Source: Salipaludibacillus daqingensis (lineage in GTDB: Bacteria > Bacillota > Bacilli > Bacillales > Salisediminibacteriaceae). From it: 64,000 nt of DNA. Numbering within the stretch: the first letter of the stretch is position 1; every line of letters begins with the position of its first letter. Positions 59,353-64,000 of this stretch are shown one piece after another. The translations under genes and the position numbers were made by a program. The notes beneath the pieces are model-generated. The model made no database searches and was not told the origin of the DNA. It worked only from the letters and a program-made list of their open reading frames with translations. The stretch lies in assembly GCF_029891575.1 (NCBI RefSeq), contig NZ_JARZHF010000009.1, positions 124,001 to 188,000 on the forward strand. Direction: 5' to 3'.

Positions 59353-60747
59353 TTATGTGGGGTTAGGAAATGAAACAGTAAACGCTGTTCCTATGTTTGG
59401 CTTGCTCTCTATCTGAATTTTTCCAGCATGGGCCTCTACTAAAGCTTTCACAATTGCTAAACCAATCCCTAAACCACCTCGTTCAGGATTACGAGATTTC
59501 TCTCCACGATAAAAACGGTCAAACGCATGGTTAATTTCTTCTTCCGACATTCCTTTCCCTTCATCTAAAACGGTAAAGTGTGTAAACTGGTTATCCTGAG
59601 TCACACTAATTTCAACTTTATTTCCTGGCATAGTGAACTTCCATGCATTATTAAGTAAATTAGTCATGACTTGAATAAATCGATCATGGTCCGCCTCGAA
59701 TGTAAAAGATTCTTCTAAAGGAACAATGAGTGAGATGTCTTTTTCTTGAAAAGAAGGTTCAAATCTTTCCTTAATGGAAGATAATACTTTCATCGAATCT
59801 AACCTTTTTATATCTAATTTTTTACGCGGATTTTCCGCAGCATGCAGTTGTTCCATTTCATTTACAAGTCTCACGAGACGCATCAGCTCATCATAACTTT
59901 GTTCCAATCTTTCAGGAGTTGGTTCTAAAACACCGTCTTGAAAGGCTTCTAGTTGACTTCTCAACGTAGACAGAGGGGTTCTCAACTCGTGAGCCAAATC
60001 ACTCGTAAATTGCTTTCGAAGTTGTTCTCCTTTTTGCAGAGACTCCGACAAGTCATTCACTCCTTCTGATAACTCTTTCAGTTCTTGTATATGGTGATTT
60101 GTCGATAACACTTGATGGCGATGACTTTTCAACCTTTGAACTGCTCCACCAATTTCTTTGATACCTTTTGTTAACTGCTTAGAAAAAACAAAGCTAAACA
60201 AGATAGCCAAACTTGTCATGATAATAATGGCAATAATGACATAACGAGTGAAATCAGCAAGAAATTGATTTTCTGTTCCAGCAAACGAAGGTGGGAATTG
60301 AACGTTCATTGTTCCTACAAATGTGTCATCAACATAAAGCTCATATGTTTCTGAACTCATATGATTTCCGCCCATCATGTTTCCCATCATACCCATCATC
60401 CCATTGCCTTTCCCACTTCCTCCTCGTCGTTCATCCATATGATTGTCTGTTTGTGCACTATTGATTAGAAGCTCATCATCTGTAGAATATAATTGAAAAA
60501 CGACATTTTCTTGCATCGTCACTCGATGAAGGATCGATTCTGATTGCGAAGTAAACGATCCATGTTGTCTATAGTCTTCTTCCACTTGTTCTAACGTCTG
60601 TATAATTTGTTCTTCCCTTCGATTTTCTACATAGCTACTAAAGGATTCTTGAAAACCAAAAAAAGCAGCAACGCCTACAAATAAAATGCCCCCTAGTGAC
60701 AAGACGAGAGAAAAAAAGAGAAGTCGGCTATAAAGAGTTCGAAACAT
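59353..60747 (-). CDS. Sensor histidine kinase with Met-rich extracytoplasmic loop
   Basis: 464 residues. TM1 (~9-31), an extracytoplasmic domain (~32-168) containing the Met/Gly/His segment NHMDERRGG...GMMGMMGNMMGGNHM (103-130), TM2 (~169-188), HAMP, then the kinase core: H-box LAHELRTPLS, N-box NNAWKFT, DEGKGMS and GGLGIGLAIVK. Met-rich loops bind Cu(I) or Ag(I) in other systems, so the stimulus is probably copper or silver; that is inference. GGAGG is 8 bp before ATG 60747, which lies 20 nt inside the regulator gene, giving translational coupling. Confidence 0.85.
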   Translation of the reverse strand: MFRTLYSRLLFFSLVLSLGGILFVGVAAFFGFQESFSSYVENRREEQIIQTLEQVEEDYRQHGSFTSQSESILHRVTMQENVVFQLYSTDDELLINSAQTDNHMDERRGGSGKGNGMMGMMGNMMGGNHMSSETYELYVDDTFVGTMNVQFPPSFAGTENQFLADFTRYVIIAIIIMTSLAILFSFVFSKQLTKGIKEIGGAVQRLKSHRHQVLSTNHHIQELKELSEGVNDLSESLQKGEQLRKQFTSDLAHELRTPLSTLRSQLEAFQDGVLEPTPERLEQSYDELMRLVRLVNEMEQLHAAENPRKKLDIKRLDSMKVLSSIKERFEPSFQEKDISLIVPLEESFTFEADHDRFIQVMTNLLNNAWKFTMPGNKVEISVTQDNQFTHFTVLDEGKGMSEEEINHAFDRFYRGEKSRNPERGGLGIGLAIVKALVEAHAGKIQIESKPNIGTAFTVSFPNPT

Positions 60748-61438
60748 CGCGTTTTCCTCCAAATTTGTAGCCCATTCCAAACACCGTTACAATAAACTCC
60801 GGATGACGAGTGTCTTTTTCAATTTTTTTGCGTAAATTCTTTACATGAACATCAACACTTCGTTCATACCCTTCATAAAATCGATCTTCCTGAATTTTCT
60901 CTAGTAAGTCTGCTCGGCTAAACACTCGTCCAGGTTCTTTCGACATGGCTATCAACGTATGAAATTCAATGGGAGTTAACGTGATTTCCTCATCGTGGAG
61001 TGTGACTTGCTTTTTCTTATTGTCGATCACTAATATTCCTTTGTTAAATGATTGGATACTTTTTTTGCTCAACAGACCCGTTCTTCTTAATATCGCTTCC
61101 ATCCTGACAATAACCTCTTTTGGACTGAAAGGTTTCGTAACATAATCATCCGCACCTAGCATCATTCCCTGAATACGCTCTTCTTCCGTCGATTTAGCAC
61201 TTAATATTAAGATAGGTACTTCTGATTTTTGACGAATGCGCGTACATATCTCTTCCCCAGTTAAATCGGGTAACATCAAATCTAATATGAGAAAGTCAGG
61301 CTGTTTTTCCCAAAATAAGTCCAATCCTTCTTTGCCGTTTTTAGAAGAAGATACTTCATACCCTTCCTTTTCTAAATAGGCGGTAAGAACATCGATCATC
61401 ATCGGTTCATCTTCCATTACCATGACGTGAATAGACAT
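60728..61438 (-). CDS. OmpR-family response regulator
   Basis: 236 residues: receiver domain with acidic pocket MEDEP, phospho-acceptor Asp in PDFLILDLMLPDL (~53), Lys in DDYVTKPFSPKE, and a C-terminal winged helix (ERSVDVHVKNLRKKIEKD). Partner of the overlapping kinase. GAGGTG is 7 bp before the ATG. A TATAAT lies about 50 bp upstream. Two 11-bp direct repeats in the divergent promoter region (61525-61546) are a likely binding site. Confidence 0.9.
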   Translation of the reverse strand: MSIHVMVMEDEPMMIDVLTAYLEKEGYEVSSSKNGKEGLDLFWEKQPDFLILDLMLPDLTGEEICTRIRQKSEVPILILSAKSTEEERIQGMMLGADDYVTKPFSPKEVIVRMEAILRRTGLLSKKSIQSFNKGILVIDNKKKQVTLHDEEITLTPIEFHTLIAMSKEPGRVFSRADLLEKIQEDRFYEGYERSVDVHVKNLRKKIEKDTRHPEFIVTVFGMGYKFGGKRDVSNSL

Positions 61439-61524
61439 AGGCTACACCTCTTCAATTATCTCGGTCTCTTTTAAAAAAATTATATCATATGGTAATGATT
61501 TCAAAGGGATACATCCAAAAAACA

Positions 61525-61546
61525 CATAACTTCTTCATAACTTCTT
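61525..61546 (+). promoter_or_regulatory. Tandem 11-bp direct repeat, predicted response-regulator binding site
   Basis: CATAACTTCTT occurs twice in immediate succession, one helical turn apart, 24 bp before a TATACT -10 (61571-61576) that lacks a good -35. This is the geometry of promoters activated by OmpR-type regulators. Confidence 0.65.
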
Positions 61547-61607
61547 TATCCTGATCTCACAAGTTCAATTTATACTGAAGGTAGATCAAAACAAGGAGGA
61601 GATTATA

Positions 61608-61955
61608 ATGAAAAAGGGCTTTATCGTAGGAATTGTCGTTCTTTTATTAACTGCAATAGGAGGAACAGTTCTAGCATCTGAGAGCAATGGTGATTGGAAT
61701 TTCGAAGACCGTCTTTCATTTATGCAAGACAGACATCCAGATTTAACAGATGAAGAGCTAGAAAAAAGATTTAATGAATGTACGATCAGACATGAAGAAG
61801 GAGAATTCGGTCCTGGAATGATGAGAGGCGGAATGATGGGTCAAGGGAAAGGCATGGGTATGGGACAAGGGAATGGTCCTGGAAATGGCTTTGGTCCAAA
61901 TAATGGTCAAGGGAACGGGTTTGGCCCTGGTTCCGACCAAGAAAATGATAAGTAA
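61608..61955 (+). CDS. Secreted Met/Gly-rich protein
   Basis: 115 residues. Signal peptide (1-24, cleavage after VLA), then FEDRLSFMQDRHPDLTDEEL with a Cys-containing helix (FNECTIRHEEG). The tail is low-complexity GMMRGGMMGQGKGMGMGQGN followed by NGFGP repeats. The MxxMH/C-style and Met-rich patterns suggest extracytoplasmic binding of soft metals, perhaps Cu(I). Divergent from the two-component system, with its predicted binding site in the promoter, so it is probably the main target. AAGGAGG precedes the ATG. I know of no characterised homologue. Confidence 0.7.
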   Translation: MKKGFIVGIVVLLLTAIGGTVLASESNGDWNFEDRLSFMQDRHPDLTDEELEKRFNECTIRHEEGEFGPGMMRGGMMGQGKGMGMGQGNGPGNGFGPNNGQGNGFGPGSDQENDK

Positions 61956-61999
61956 ATGAACTTATTTTGATTTGAGTTTTAGAACAGACCTTCGTAAAA

Positions 62000-62034
62000 A
62001 AGTGTTTTCTCGCCTTAGAGAGAGCACTTTATTT
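62000..62034 (+). terminator. Terminator after the Met/Gly-rich gene
   Basis: AAGTG...TTCTC against GAGAG..CACTT with a 6-nt loop and T-rich tail; imperfect stem. Confidence 0.65.
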
Positions 62035-62084
62035 CATTATTTTTCTTTCAATACAATATATTTTTTTAATAAGGAGAGGTTAAC

Positions 62085-62315
62085 ATGATGTCAGGAAACT
62101 GGATAAACAGTGGATTTTTCGGATATGGTTTCTTTAGTATTTTCATTATTATAGCAATATTTTTTATTATCCTTTGGTTAGTTAAACCAAATCAATCTTC
62201 ATCAGTTTCTTATTCCAGTAATGGAGCACTCGATACGTTGAAAATGCGCCTTGCAAAAGGAGAAATGACAGAAGAAGAATACGACCGATTAAGACGAAAA
62301 ATAGAGCAATCATAG
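62085..62315 (+). CDS. SHOCT-domain membrane protein
   Basis: 76 residues. One membrane helix (~16-33, FFSIFIIIAIFFIILWLV), then a C-terminal SHOCT module (ALDTLKMRLAKGEMTEEEYD) with the ERLAKGEIxxEEY signature. SHOCT peptides are thought to drive oligomerisation. AAGGAGAGG precedes the first ATG. Same strand as the Met/Gly-rich gene, but a terminator lies between. Confidence 0.8.
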   Translation: MMSGNWINSGFFGYGFFSIFIIIAIFFIILWLVKPNQSSSVSYSSNGALDTLKMRLAKGEMTEEEYDRLRRKIEQS

Positions 62316-62369
62316 TAATAAAAATAACTTCTAAATTTACTGTCTCGATTACTCTTCATTTTAAGTAAG

Positions 62370-62405
62370 AAACTCCCTCACCTTTTAAAGATCGTCGGGG
62401 GAGTT
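62370..62405 (-). terminator. Probable terminator of the AbrB-like gene
   Basis: AAACTCCC/GGGAGTTT arms, overlapping the last codons of the gene on the minus strand. Confidence 0.6.
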
Positions 62406-62765
62406 TCCCACTTCTTCTCTCCTTTCATAAGCTAAATGATTTTTCTTTAATATTACCCCATTAAATTCATTATCCACAAAAATAGATAAGCGGTCGCCTT
62501 CTTTTAATTTCACAAGATTTTTTATTTCTGATGGAATTCGAACCGCGCCATTTTGAGTAATAAGCATCCGATTTTCGACCGTTTGAGTATCTGATCGATA
62601 AATCGTAATGTCATTTGACTTCTCATCAAATCTAACAAACACTTCATCTCTAGGAAAAAAAGATACTAGTTTCCTTATCCCGGCTGGTACTAATATCGTT
62701 TGATCCTTTTTAAACTTACAGACGCGCTTTGTATCATATATTGACCTTTTTATAACTCCATTCAC
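62385..62765 (-). CDS. Tandem AbrB/SpoVT-like DNA-binding protein
   Basis: 126 residues with two swapped-hairpin AbrB modules: KKDQTILVPAGIRKLVSFFP (~19-60) and ITQNGAVRIPSEIKNLVKLK, then EGDRLSIFV (~69-112). The Ix(I/V)P and GD turns are the AbrB core. Most AbrB-type regulators have one such domain and dimerise; two in one chain is less usual, and the first is more diverged. GTG start with GAGGTGAG upstream. No antitoxin/toxin partner is next to it. It may regulate the metal cluster or be a bystander. Confidence 0.7.
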   Translation of the reverse strand: MNGVIKRSIYDTKRVCKFKKDQTILVPAGIRKLVSFFPRDEVFVRFDEKSNDITIYRSDTQTVENRMLITQNGAVRIPSEIKNLVKLKEGDRLSIFVDNEFNGVILKKNHLAYERREEVGNSPDDL

Positions 62766-62856
62766 ATTTTCTCACCTCTATGTTTTCACTATCGCTTCAT
62801 TGTAATCTTATTATTTGAAGAAAGTTTGAAGTTTGTATGTGAAATTTCCCTAAATC

Positions 62857-62900
62857 AATAAGTAAATGAACACCAAAATTTTGGTGTTCATTTACTTATT
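62857..62900. repeat. Perfect 44-bp palindrome
   Basis: Every base from 62857 pairs with its mirror to 62900; the centre is CACCAAAATTTTGGTG. It lies between two divergent genes, where a terminator is not expected. There is no T run beyond the palindrome itself. Confidence 0.85.
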
Positions 62901-63064
62901 ATCTTTCTGTACCTTTCATATTTATAAAAAATGGGACATACCTTTAATCAATAGAGTTAAAAAGGGAGGGCAAGATGCTGGAACACTTCTCTACTTAATT
63001 TTGAAGGTAAATCAAATCACTTTTTATTTCAGTTATGGTTTAAAATCGATCAGGAGGTATAATC

Positions 63065-63628
63065 ATGCTTAGTATTATCATTTTTTTCAGCTTAACAATA
63101 ATCATTCTATATCGTTTACTGACAATGATCAAAAACAAAACGGATGCCATGGAAGGCATGGTTCTCACCATGTCACTCAGCATGGCTCTCGGTTTAATCG
63201 TTGGCATCATTGTCGCCCTTCCACTAGAAGGTCACTTACTCTTATCTACTCTTGTAAGTGTTGCAATTGCCTCATTAATTGGCCTCCTGATCGGTCTTCT
63301 TTTCAGCTACCATGCTAGTTTCGAAGGTGTGTTTAGTGGATTAATGTCCGCAATGATGGCTGTCATGATTGTTGAGATGATACCTATGGAGCATCGGTAT
63401 ATTTTCCTTTTTGCTAGTAGTATGTTTTTCATTTTGACTACCGTCTTTTGTTTCATGTTTCTCCTTTTTAGGAAAAATCAAAAAAACAACATGTCGATTG
63501 TATATTTTGGCGCGATCATATGGGTTATTTTCGCTTTTTTTATCCTTCTAACGAACACTCCTACATCATTTGAACAGATTGAGGATGAACATGAGTACCA
63601 TACCTTTTCGATCGAGCGTTTTCGTTAA
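63065..63628 (+). CDS. Met-rich multi-span membrane protein of unknown function
   Basis: 187 residues with five to six helices. Methionines cluster in and beside helices: TDAMEGMVLTMSLSMALGLI and FSGLMSAMMAVMIVEMIPME, a pattern suggestive of soft-metal handling and seen in unnamed Firmicute proteins near copper genes. The C-terminal tail is His/Glu-containing (EQIEDEHEYHTFSIERF). CAGGAGG precedes the ATG. It is convergent with the copper-type ATPase gene. Substrate not established. Confidence 0.65.
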   Translation: MLSIIIFFSLTIIILYRLLTMIKNKTDAMEGMVLTMSLSMALGLIVGIIVALPLEGHLLLSTLVSVAIASLIGLLIGLLFSYHASFEGVFSGLMSAMMAVMIVEMIPMEHRYIFLFASSMFFILTTVFCFMFLLFRKNQKNNMSIVYFGAIIWVIFAFFILLTNTPTSFEQIEDEHEYHTFSIERFR

Positions 63629-63639
63629 TTGGATCTACT

Positions 63640-63692
63640 CTGAAGAAAAAAAGAAAGAGAAGGGATAAACTTCCCACTCTCTTCTTTCCGAA
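63640..63692. terminator. Bidirectional terminator between the Met-rich membrane protein and the ATPase gene
   Basis: An imperfect stem GAAAGAGAAGGG/TTCCC-ACT-CTCTTCTTTC; T run on the minus strand after AAGAAAAAAA. Confidence 0.65.
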
Positions 63693-63705
63693 ACAATTTC
63701 ATTGA

Positions 63706-63999
63706 TTAACTTTGCGGAATAGATTTAAACTTTTTTAACCTAAGTGTATTTAGTACAACCGAAACGGAACTAAACGCCATAGCGGCACCCGCTAACGCTG
63801 GATTAAGAAATATACCGATGAAAGGATATAAAACACCCGCTGCCACTGGGATGAGTACGATATTATATCCGAAAGCCCAACCAAGGTTTTGCCAGATCAT
63901 CCGCATGGTTGCTTTTGATAACCTTAAAGCTGTGACGACACTCATGACATCACCTCTCATCAATGTGACGTTTGCTGTTTCTACCGCCACATCTGTTCC
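63706..63999 (-). CDS. copA: Copper-type P1B ATPase (CopA-like), C-terminal 97 residues
   Basis: Only the 3' end is inside the window; the gene continues past the right edge. Visible are [18 protein letters not shown] of the hinge, the helix 7 motif [12 protein letters not shown] (YN) and helix 8 [15 protein letters not shown] (MxxSS), which together form the Cu(I) transport site in CopA pumps. It exports Cu(I) from the cytoplasm. It ends the putative metal-response region. Confidence 0.88.
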
Positions 64000-64000
64000 T

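Follow-up and report, generated by a model that had tools for sequence, protein, structure and literature searches.

On sequence comparison, a real, conserved and copper-associated module lies at positions 59353-63999 of a 64-kb stretch of the 4.58-Mb genome of the salt-loving bacterium Salipaludibacillus daqingensis (G000:C9:124001-188000, the whole stretch analysed and hereafter the window), and it contains two protein families that lack names: a secreted Met/Gly-rich protein (here SGM) and a Met-rich membrane protein (here METM). We propose, at a probability of about 60%, that a sensor histidine kinase (HK1) and its response regulator (RR1) respond to Cu(I)/Ag(I) outside the membrane and activate SGM via a set of direct repeats, with SGM acting as a secreted metal sponge. 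The proposal is built on the genes and their layout, the repeat box, ligand-type residues, the copper neighbourhood of SGM relatives and the fusion of METM relatives to cupredoxin domains. The initial annotation of the segment listed, besides the two-component pair and the two Met-rich proteins, a SHOCT membrane protein, a tandem-AbrB regulator and a CopA-type ATPase; open reading frames and domain scans recover all of these genes in place.

The divergent HK1/RR1-SGM unit and its candidate operator

HK1 (464 amino acids; 59353-60747, minus strand, ATG at 60747) carries HisKA and HATPase_c domains above the Pfam cut-offs and overlaps the gene for RR1, an OmpR-family response regulator by Pfam/NCBIfam scan (60728-61438, minus strand). 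SGM (115 amino acids; 61608-61955, plus strand) is encoded divergently and has a conserved core around FMQDRHPDLTDEELEKRFNEC followed by a Met/Gly-rich tail; a terminator-like hairpin, found by consensus match only, lies 3' of it (61999-62030, plus strand). Between RR1 and SGM, a putative RR1 operator (61525-61566, plus strand) is formed by repeats with an 11-bp period: at 61525 and again at 61536 stand CATAACTTC half-sites, at 61547 a degenerate unit and at 61558 CACAAGTTC. A candidate -10 element, TATACT, follows at 61571-61576; it and the last two repeat units were assigned by eye. Repeats ending just before a -10 are the geometry of PhoB-like activators, and the arrangement here would be consistent with activation of that kind.

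The 22-bp box at 61525-61546 is the sole match in the window at up to three mismatches, with none in 100 shuffles. Across the whole genome the 22-mer has one site within three mismatches, which is exact; since a reversed control pattern also yields one site within three mismatches, the exact match and the conserved position are what count. A looser form of the box pattern gives 27 sites in this genome versus 29 for its reversed control, and apart from the perfect site these matches are therefore background. Direct control of CopA or METM by RR1 was considered as a candidate and rejected, there being no second 22-mer site within three mismatches in the genome.

In relatives, the direct repeat was scored as CATAASTTC-N2-CATAASTTC, after removal of fifteen duplicate loci (also dropped from the sensor-Met and METM-fusion counts below). 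Scores of at least 15/18 were reached in 23 of the 24 loci where a regulator is divergent to SGM, and shuffle fractions there did not exceed 0.01; the sole exception, L089, carries a regulator of another type (RR2, described below). Among loci without a divergent regulator, 9/52 reach 15/18. These nine include two Paenibacillus loci in which regulator and kinase come after SGM on the same strand, a second SGM copy in S. aurantiacus, located some 0.9 kb from a gene for a multicopper oxidase, and genome G007 (L035), where SGM and the box are kept and no RR1/HK1 was found. At this last locus (L035 9810-10400) an AbrB gene is also retained, and the upstream stretch resembles a kinase remnant by eye. 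Because the half-site consensus was drawn from the same promoters that were scored, the decisive tests are those against shuffled sequence, alternative spacings, loci lacking a divergent regulator and the reversed pattern. When a 20-mer was searched at up to one mismatch in 60 genomes, eight of nine sites lay just upstream of SGM, and the reversed pattern gave none. The SGM paralogue near copA (SGM2) has no RR1 box in front (10/18).

The kinase genes behave similarly. Searching 60 relatives with HK1 gave 16 kinase places at E<=1e-80, and comparison of coordinates shows SGM adjoining 11 of the 16 and 10 of the best 11. These comparisons support a conserved kinase-regulator-SGM unit, divergently arranged, across genera. 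The initial annotation proposed conserved order of the kinase/regulator pair, the Met/Gly-rich protein and CopA as a check; the first two recur together across genera, with the box in the 23 of 24 divergent loci noted above, and CopA falls outside this unit, in a separate row.

The sensor domain of HK1 contains a loop, MMGMMGNMMGGNHM, that is Met/His-rich as read from the sequence, and a Met/His-rich stretch occurs at about the same extracytoplasmic position across HK1-type kinases. The maximum number of Met per 30 residues has a median of 5 in HK1-type sensors (n = 25, minimum 4) versus 2 in the other kinases of the loci (n = 39, maximum 4; p = 1.2e-11), some of the latter reaching 4, the HK1-type minimum. 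The predicted sensor fold is PDC/PAS-like (predicted local distance difference test score, pLDDT, 75), with the Met/His-rich stretch as a low-confidence loop. A structure search with this model matched many PDC/PAS-like sensors, including CusS with silver (PDB 5ku5); as WalK, the PAS domain of another kinase and chemoreceptor domains match as well as or better than CusS, the fold does not identify the ligand. The model supports a sensor domain, not any particular metal.

The SGM family and its proposed role

Alignment of 21 SGM sequences shows F32, H43 and P44 to be invariant and M39, C58 and H62 nearly so, with a tail that usually contains Met; the copy in the window has two His. Among these 21 members no Pfam or NCBIfam family was reached at cut-off, with weak matches only (centrin, signal peptides and the like), and a PDB profile search with SGM gave no convincing chain. 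One relative, in Alkalicoccus saliphilus (L038 17512-18081), has a tail of repeat units around MHRGPYWNEDDE and no conserved Cys. A scan of contigs with the single SGM sequence found no relative; with the alignment it found 28 loci, one of which (L079) had no SGM match in the profile scan. At the profile level, SGM is present in 15/35 genomes of the family and 10/398 of the phylum (E<=1e-3), and in 53/397 of the order and 34/398 of the class (E<=1e-6), these and the METM counts including the genome itself and those from which the profiles were built. Hosts include Evansella, Anaerobacillus, Neobacillus, Litchfieldia, Niallia and Paenibacillus, as well as Cytobacillus plasmids: a plasmid search with the window SGM gave no match, and the paralogue SGM2 as query retrieved four. 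In the two of these that we examined, regulator and kinase genes are divergent to the SGM relative, and copZ, ydhK, a CsoR-like gene and the gene for a P-type ATPase lie near it. A Tn3-family transposase lies beside both plasmid modules (L031 1766-4711 and L032 1766-4711), suggesting that the module is mobile on plasmids.

From these features we infer the metal, the binding of RR1 to the box, the activation of SGM and its role as a sponge, as follows. The Met/His-rich sensor loop of HK1 would bind Cu(I) or Ag(I) present in excess on the outer side of the membrane, and HK1 would then phosphorylate RR1. RR1 would bind the direct repeats of 11-bp period between its own gene and SGM and activate SGM, and perhaps its own operon, from an apparently single strong operator in the genome. 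Once secreted, SGM could bind the metal with its Met-rich tail and with the conserved Met, His-Pro and Cys/His residues, acting as a sponge in the manner of SilE/PcoE, and it may exert feedback on HK1 as well. Copper in and across the membrane would be handled in the same neighbourhood by METM and CopA, joined in related loci by DUF326 (Csp-like) and other proteins.

Feedback on HK1 could instead be the main function of SGM. CpxP acting on CpxA and ZraP acting on ZraS are models for a co-sensor or brake, and SGM might similarly occupy the sensor of HK1 until metal (or damage) removes it. Its position divergent to the kinase genes and behind the genome's only strong RR1-type site, its small size, its secretion and its helical predicted core (low confidence) are compatible with such a role. 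However, no sequence link to Spy (NCBIfam PRK10455), CpxP or ZraP exists at cut-off: none of the 21 SGM members has a Pfam match to these proteins, and one of 21 matches Spy at E 0.027, below the cut-off. Moreover, many SGM copies occur without an HK1-type kinase, which is found at more than 240 bits in 12 of 40 order-level SGM loci and in 16 of 40 at a looser limit. We regard a mainly co-sensory SGM as possible, if rather unlikely.

Copper genes around SGM, METM and the copA row

The neighbourhood of SGM was analysed in 40 order-level loci, representing 36 genomes and chosen almost strictly by rank among matches outside the earlier loci, so that weaker matches are missing; the 20 control stretches were drawn from contigs of a subset of these genomes. 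Copper genes were counted at E<=1e-10 and comprised those for CopA/CopB-like ATPases, CopZ, CsoR-like proteins, YdhK, Csp, multicopper oxidases and cupredoxins. A copper gene occurs near SGM in 24/40 loci versus 0/20 controls (Fisher p = 2.4e-6, a test that assumes independence; a single genus contributes nine of the 40 loci, and contig ends truncate some flanks), in line with the copper/silver-type neighbourhood claimed by the initial annotation. CopA/CopZ genes are present in 17/40 versus 0/20, any two-component gene in 33/40 versus 3/20, F510_1955-like genes in 19/40 versus 0/20 and TlpA-like genes in 11/40 versus 1/20. CsoR-like, ydhK, csp and multicopper oxidase genes each occur in four to six of the 40 loci and are not significant individually. 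DUF326 (Csp-like) genes are found about 0.6 kb beyond SGM in S. aurantiacus and between the AbrB and HK2 genes in L034.

The TlpA/ResA-like thiol proteins near some SGM copies, together with the Met-rich tails and the resemblance of HK1 to BaeS (NF012163; 235 bits, below the cut-off of 500), might be taken to indicate a system for methionine oxidation or general envelope stress, in which the Met-rich loop and tail act as oxidant scavengers or sensors, comparable to hypochlorite systems with Met-rich scavengers. We judge this improbable: CopA/CopZ, CsoR-like, Csp, multicopper oxidase and YdhK genes recur near SGM and are absent from the 20 controls, and scavenging would leave the conserved His and Cys unexplained.

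METM (187 amino acids; 63065-63628, plus strand) provides a further connection to copper. Nine Met are invariant among eight aligned sequences (M29, 32, 36 and 40; M94, 97, 98, 101 and 105), mostly three to four residues apart, in two hydrophobic segments judged by eye to be membrane segments. METM fits no Pfam or NCBIfam family, with weak matches only, which, with the SGM result, bears out the description of the Met-rich proteins as uncharacterised, and profile searches gave no convincing PDB relative; a literature search, with subscription journals and preprints outside its scope, found no described METM-like protein. The METM profile is positive in 177/397 order genomes (E<=1e-6). A cupredoxin-like C-terminal domain was recognised by sequence pattern in 18 of 33 members, and 10/10 and 2/2 of the scanned METM-cupredoxin fusions pass the Pfam copper-domain cut-off. 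Copper genes lie near METM in 14 of 20 loci hand-picked from profile matches. The METM of the window has the membrane domain and no cupredoxin tail and is thus of the stand-alone kind.

The window ends within copA (63706-64000, minus strand, 3' end; whole gene G000:C9:187706-190174, L007:5707-8175), the 822-residue product of which scores 615.3 bits against a cut-off of 397 for the copper-translocating ATPase model TIGR01511, as expected from the CopA-type call of the initial annotation. Beyond copA, on the same strand and just outside the window, are the genes for SGM2, a small paralogue of SGM, and for a second kinase and regulator (HK2 and RR2), so that copA is the last gene of a row, RR2-HK2-SGM2-copA, which may be an operon. 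Past RR2 follow genes for a CW_binding_2-domain protein, Lgt, an F510_1955-family protein and a ResA/TlpA-like protein. Relatives of HK2/RR2 (L007 8600-10739) recur in other copper loci, and the HK2 sensor has no Met loop by eye.

These results also bear on the nature of the metal. Resistance islands mix metals, and Zn, Hg or Cd could in principle be the signal, with the copper genes merely island neighbours. We consider this very improbable, as Met-rich sites favour Cu(I)/Ag(I), METM is found fused to cupredoxins and the adjacent ATPase is of the copper type.

Several observations weigh against an HK1-RR1 copper sensor with SGM as its sponge. HK1 and RR1 fall below the cut-offs of the heavy-metal sensor kinase and response regulator models (TIGR01386, CztS/SilS/CopS, 200.1 versus 292.55 bits; TIGR01387, CztR/SilR/CopR, 135.6 versus 279.2 bits). 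The potential ligands of SGM vary: the copy in the window has C-x3-H where most relatives have CH, the conserved Cys is missing from L038 and replaced by Met in L051, with a similar picture in several order-level loci, and SGM2, beside CopA, has no Met tail. The SGM model is itself of low confidence (pLDDT 57). In 16 of the 40 SGM loci the flank analysed lacks a copper gene; nine of these (L106, L107, L109, L110, L111, L113, L115, L117 and L120) belong to one genus and carry TlpA-like genes in its place, with F510-like genes as well in eight. Among the looser box matches in the genome, the three with two mismatches were located gene by gene, two of them lying within reading frames and the third being intergenic, with no copper-linked gene beside it (the 23 with three mismatches were counted only); since no site at copper genes was seen among the matches looked up, CopA and METM may be under control other than that of RR1.

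The remaining genes of the segment are loosely linked to SGM, contrary to the initial annotation, which had treated the AbrB and SHOCT proteins as parts of the module. The SHOCT-domain small membrane protein (76 amino acids; 62085-62315, plus strand; PF09851, 33.0 bits versus a cut-off of 27) has counterparts in five other loci, in a patchy distribution. The AbrB/MazE-like protein (126 amino acids; 62385-62765, minus strand) matches PF04014 over one half only; the second half of the proposed tandem was recognised by eye. Among the loci compared, an AbrB-like gene is a close neighbour of SGM only in L007, L033, L034 and L035, all four from Salipaludibacillus; two others have weakly similar copies. 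The gap that separates the divergently oriented genes for the AbrB-like protein and METM contains a perfect 20-bp inverted repeat with a four-base loop (62857-62900), terminator-like, with no gene obviously ending there. A second copper-type cluster of the same genome (L081 7120-10518, G000:C10) encodes a two-domain SGM relative of 165 amino acids, a DUF326 Csp-like protein and a lipoprotein that looks like a cupredoxin by eye and has no Pfam copper-domain match.

Relation to known copper systems

CopRS of Corynebacterium glutamicum is the nearest tested system. According to the available portions of its description (PMC3140484), it is a Gram-positive copper two-component system with genes for a P-type ATPase, a multicopper oxidase and TlpA nearby; cells in which it is deleted become sensitive to copper, an effect that does not extend to other heavy metals. 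A single CopR binding site, TGAAGATTTgaTGAAGATTT, is situated between copR and the divergent gene of a secreted protein, next to copO, tlpA and copB, and this direct repeat, with an 11-bp period and a 2-bp linker, is reported there as the only CopR site in the genome (PMC3140484). In the window, an 11-bp-period direct repeat likewise lies between a regulator gene and a divergent secreted protein gene; read on the other strand it is TGAAGAAGTTA twice, for comparison with TGAAGATTTgaTGAAGATTT as the C. glutamicum CopR box in the same portions (PMC3140484). CopRS belongs to another phylum, and its likeness to RR1/HK1 and SGM rests on layout and the repeat rather than on protein comparison. In addition, the CopR site is described in these portions as far upstream of the cg3286 start site (PMC3140484), in contrast to the box in the window, which is next to the candidate -10.

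The nearest functional analogue of SGM is probably SilE, which, as judged by description and not by sequence, shares with PcoE and SGM the character of a small extracytoplasmic Met/His-rich metal binder tied to a Cu/Ag two-component system, as far as the accessible text of PMC5008109 goes. In contrast to SGM with its HP...C(H) core, the same text presents SilE/PcoE as Gram-negative proteins, SilE being disordered with ten His and ten Met (PMC5008109). Csp3/DUF326 proteins, whose metal-storage genes occur in some of the same neighbourhoods as SGM, are, from partial accounts, cytosolic Cys-lined bundles, whereas SGM is secreted and Met/His based. In the literature searched, with subscription journals and preprints outside its scope, we found no described Bacillus or Bacillaceae copper two-component system with a Met-rich or small secreted protein, and the available part of PMC10141476 describes no such Bacillus system. 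As far as these literature searches show, the module is known in kind, pairing a two-component system for copper with a protein that binds metal outside the cytoplasm, and new in its parts and in bacilli.

The CsoR-CopZ-CopA system of Bacillus is likewise a copper response, and a similar gene group exists elsewhere in this genome, where a CsoR-like gene, a copA and an HMA (CopZ-like) gene lie together on another contig (the CsoR-like protein being below the cut-offs of the listed family models). It differs from the present module in employing a cytosolic one-component repressor and in having neither a kinase nor a secreted protein. Accounts of copper handling in bacilli usually centre on cytosolic CsoR and CopZA, and the initial annotation had set a two-component route against sensing by CsoR; the two-component module stands, but because of the CsoR-like/copA/HMA cluster the route is additional rather than a replacement. 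A tentative and rather unlikely extension is that SGM, as a sponge that also tunes its own kinase, and METM, with two Met-lined helices passing Cu(I) through or along the membrane, often to a cupredoxin tail, work together as an extracytoplasmic branch of copper handling that runs in parallel with CsoR.

A conserved sensor equipped with an operator and output of its own would reveal how copper is perceived outside the membrane in these Gram-positive bacteria, and it would extend the set of copper defences known from bacilli; the module offers a single testable promoter. A further question, prompted by the METM-cupredoxin fusions, is how Cu(I) is moved on the outer side of the Gram-positive membrane. 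Given that SGM (53/397) and METM (177/397) are widespread among genomes of the order, finding their functions would annotate many unnamed proteins.

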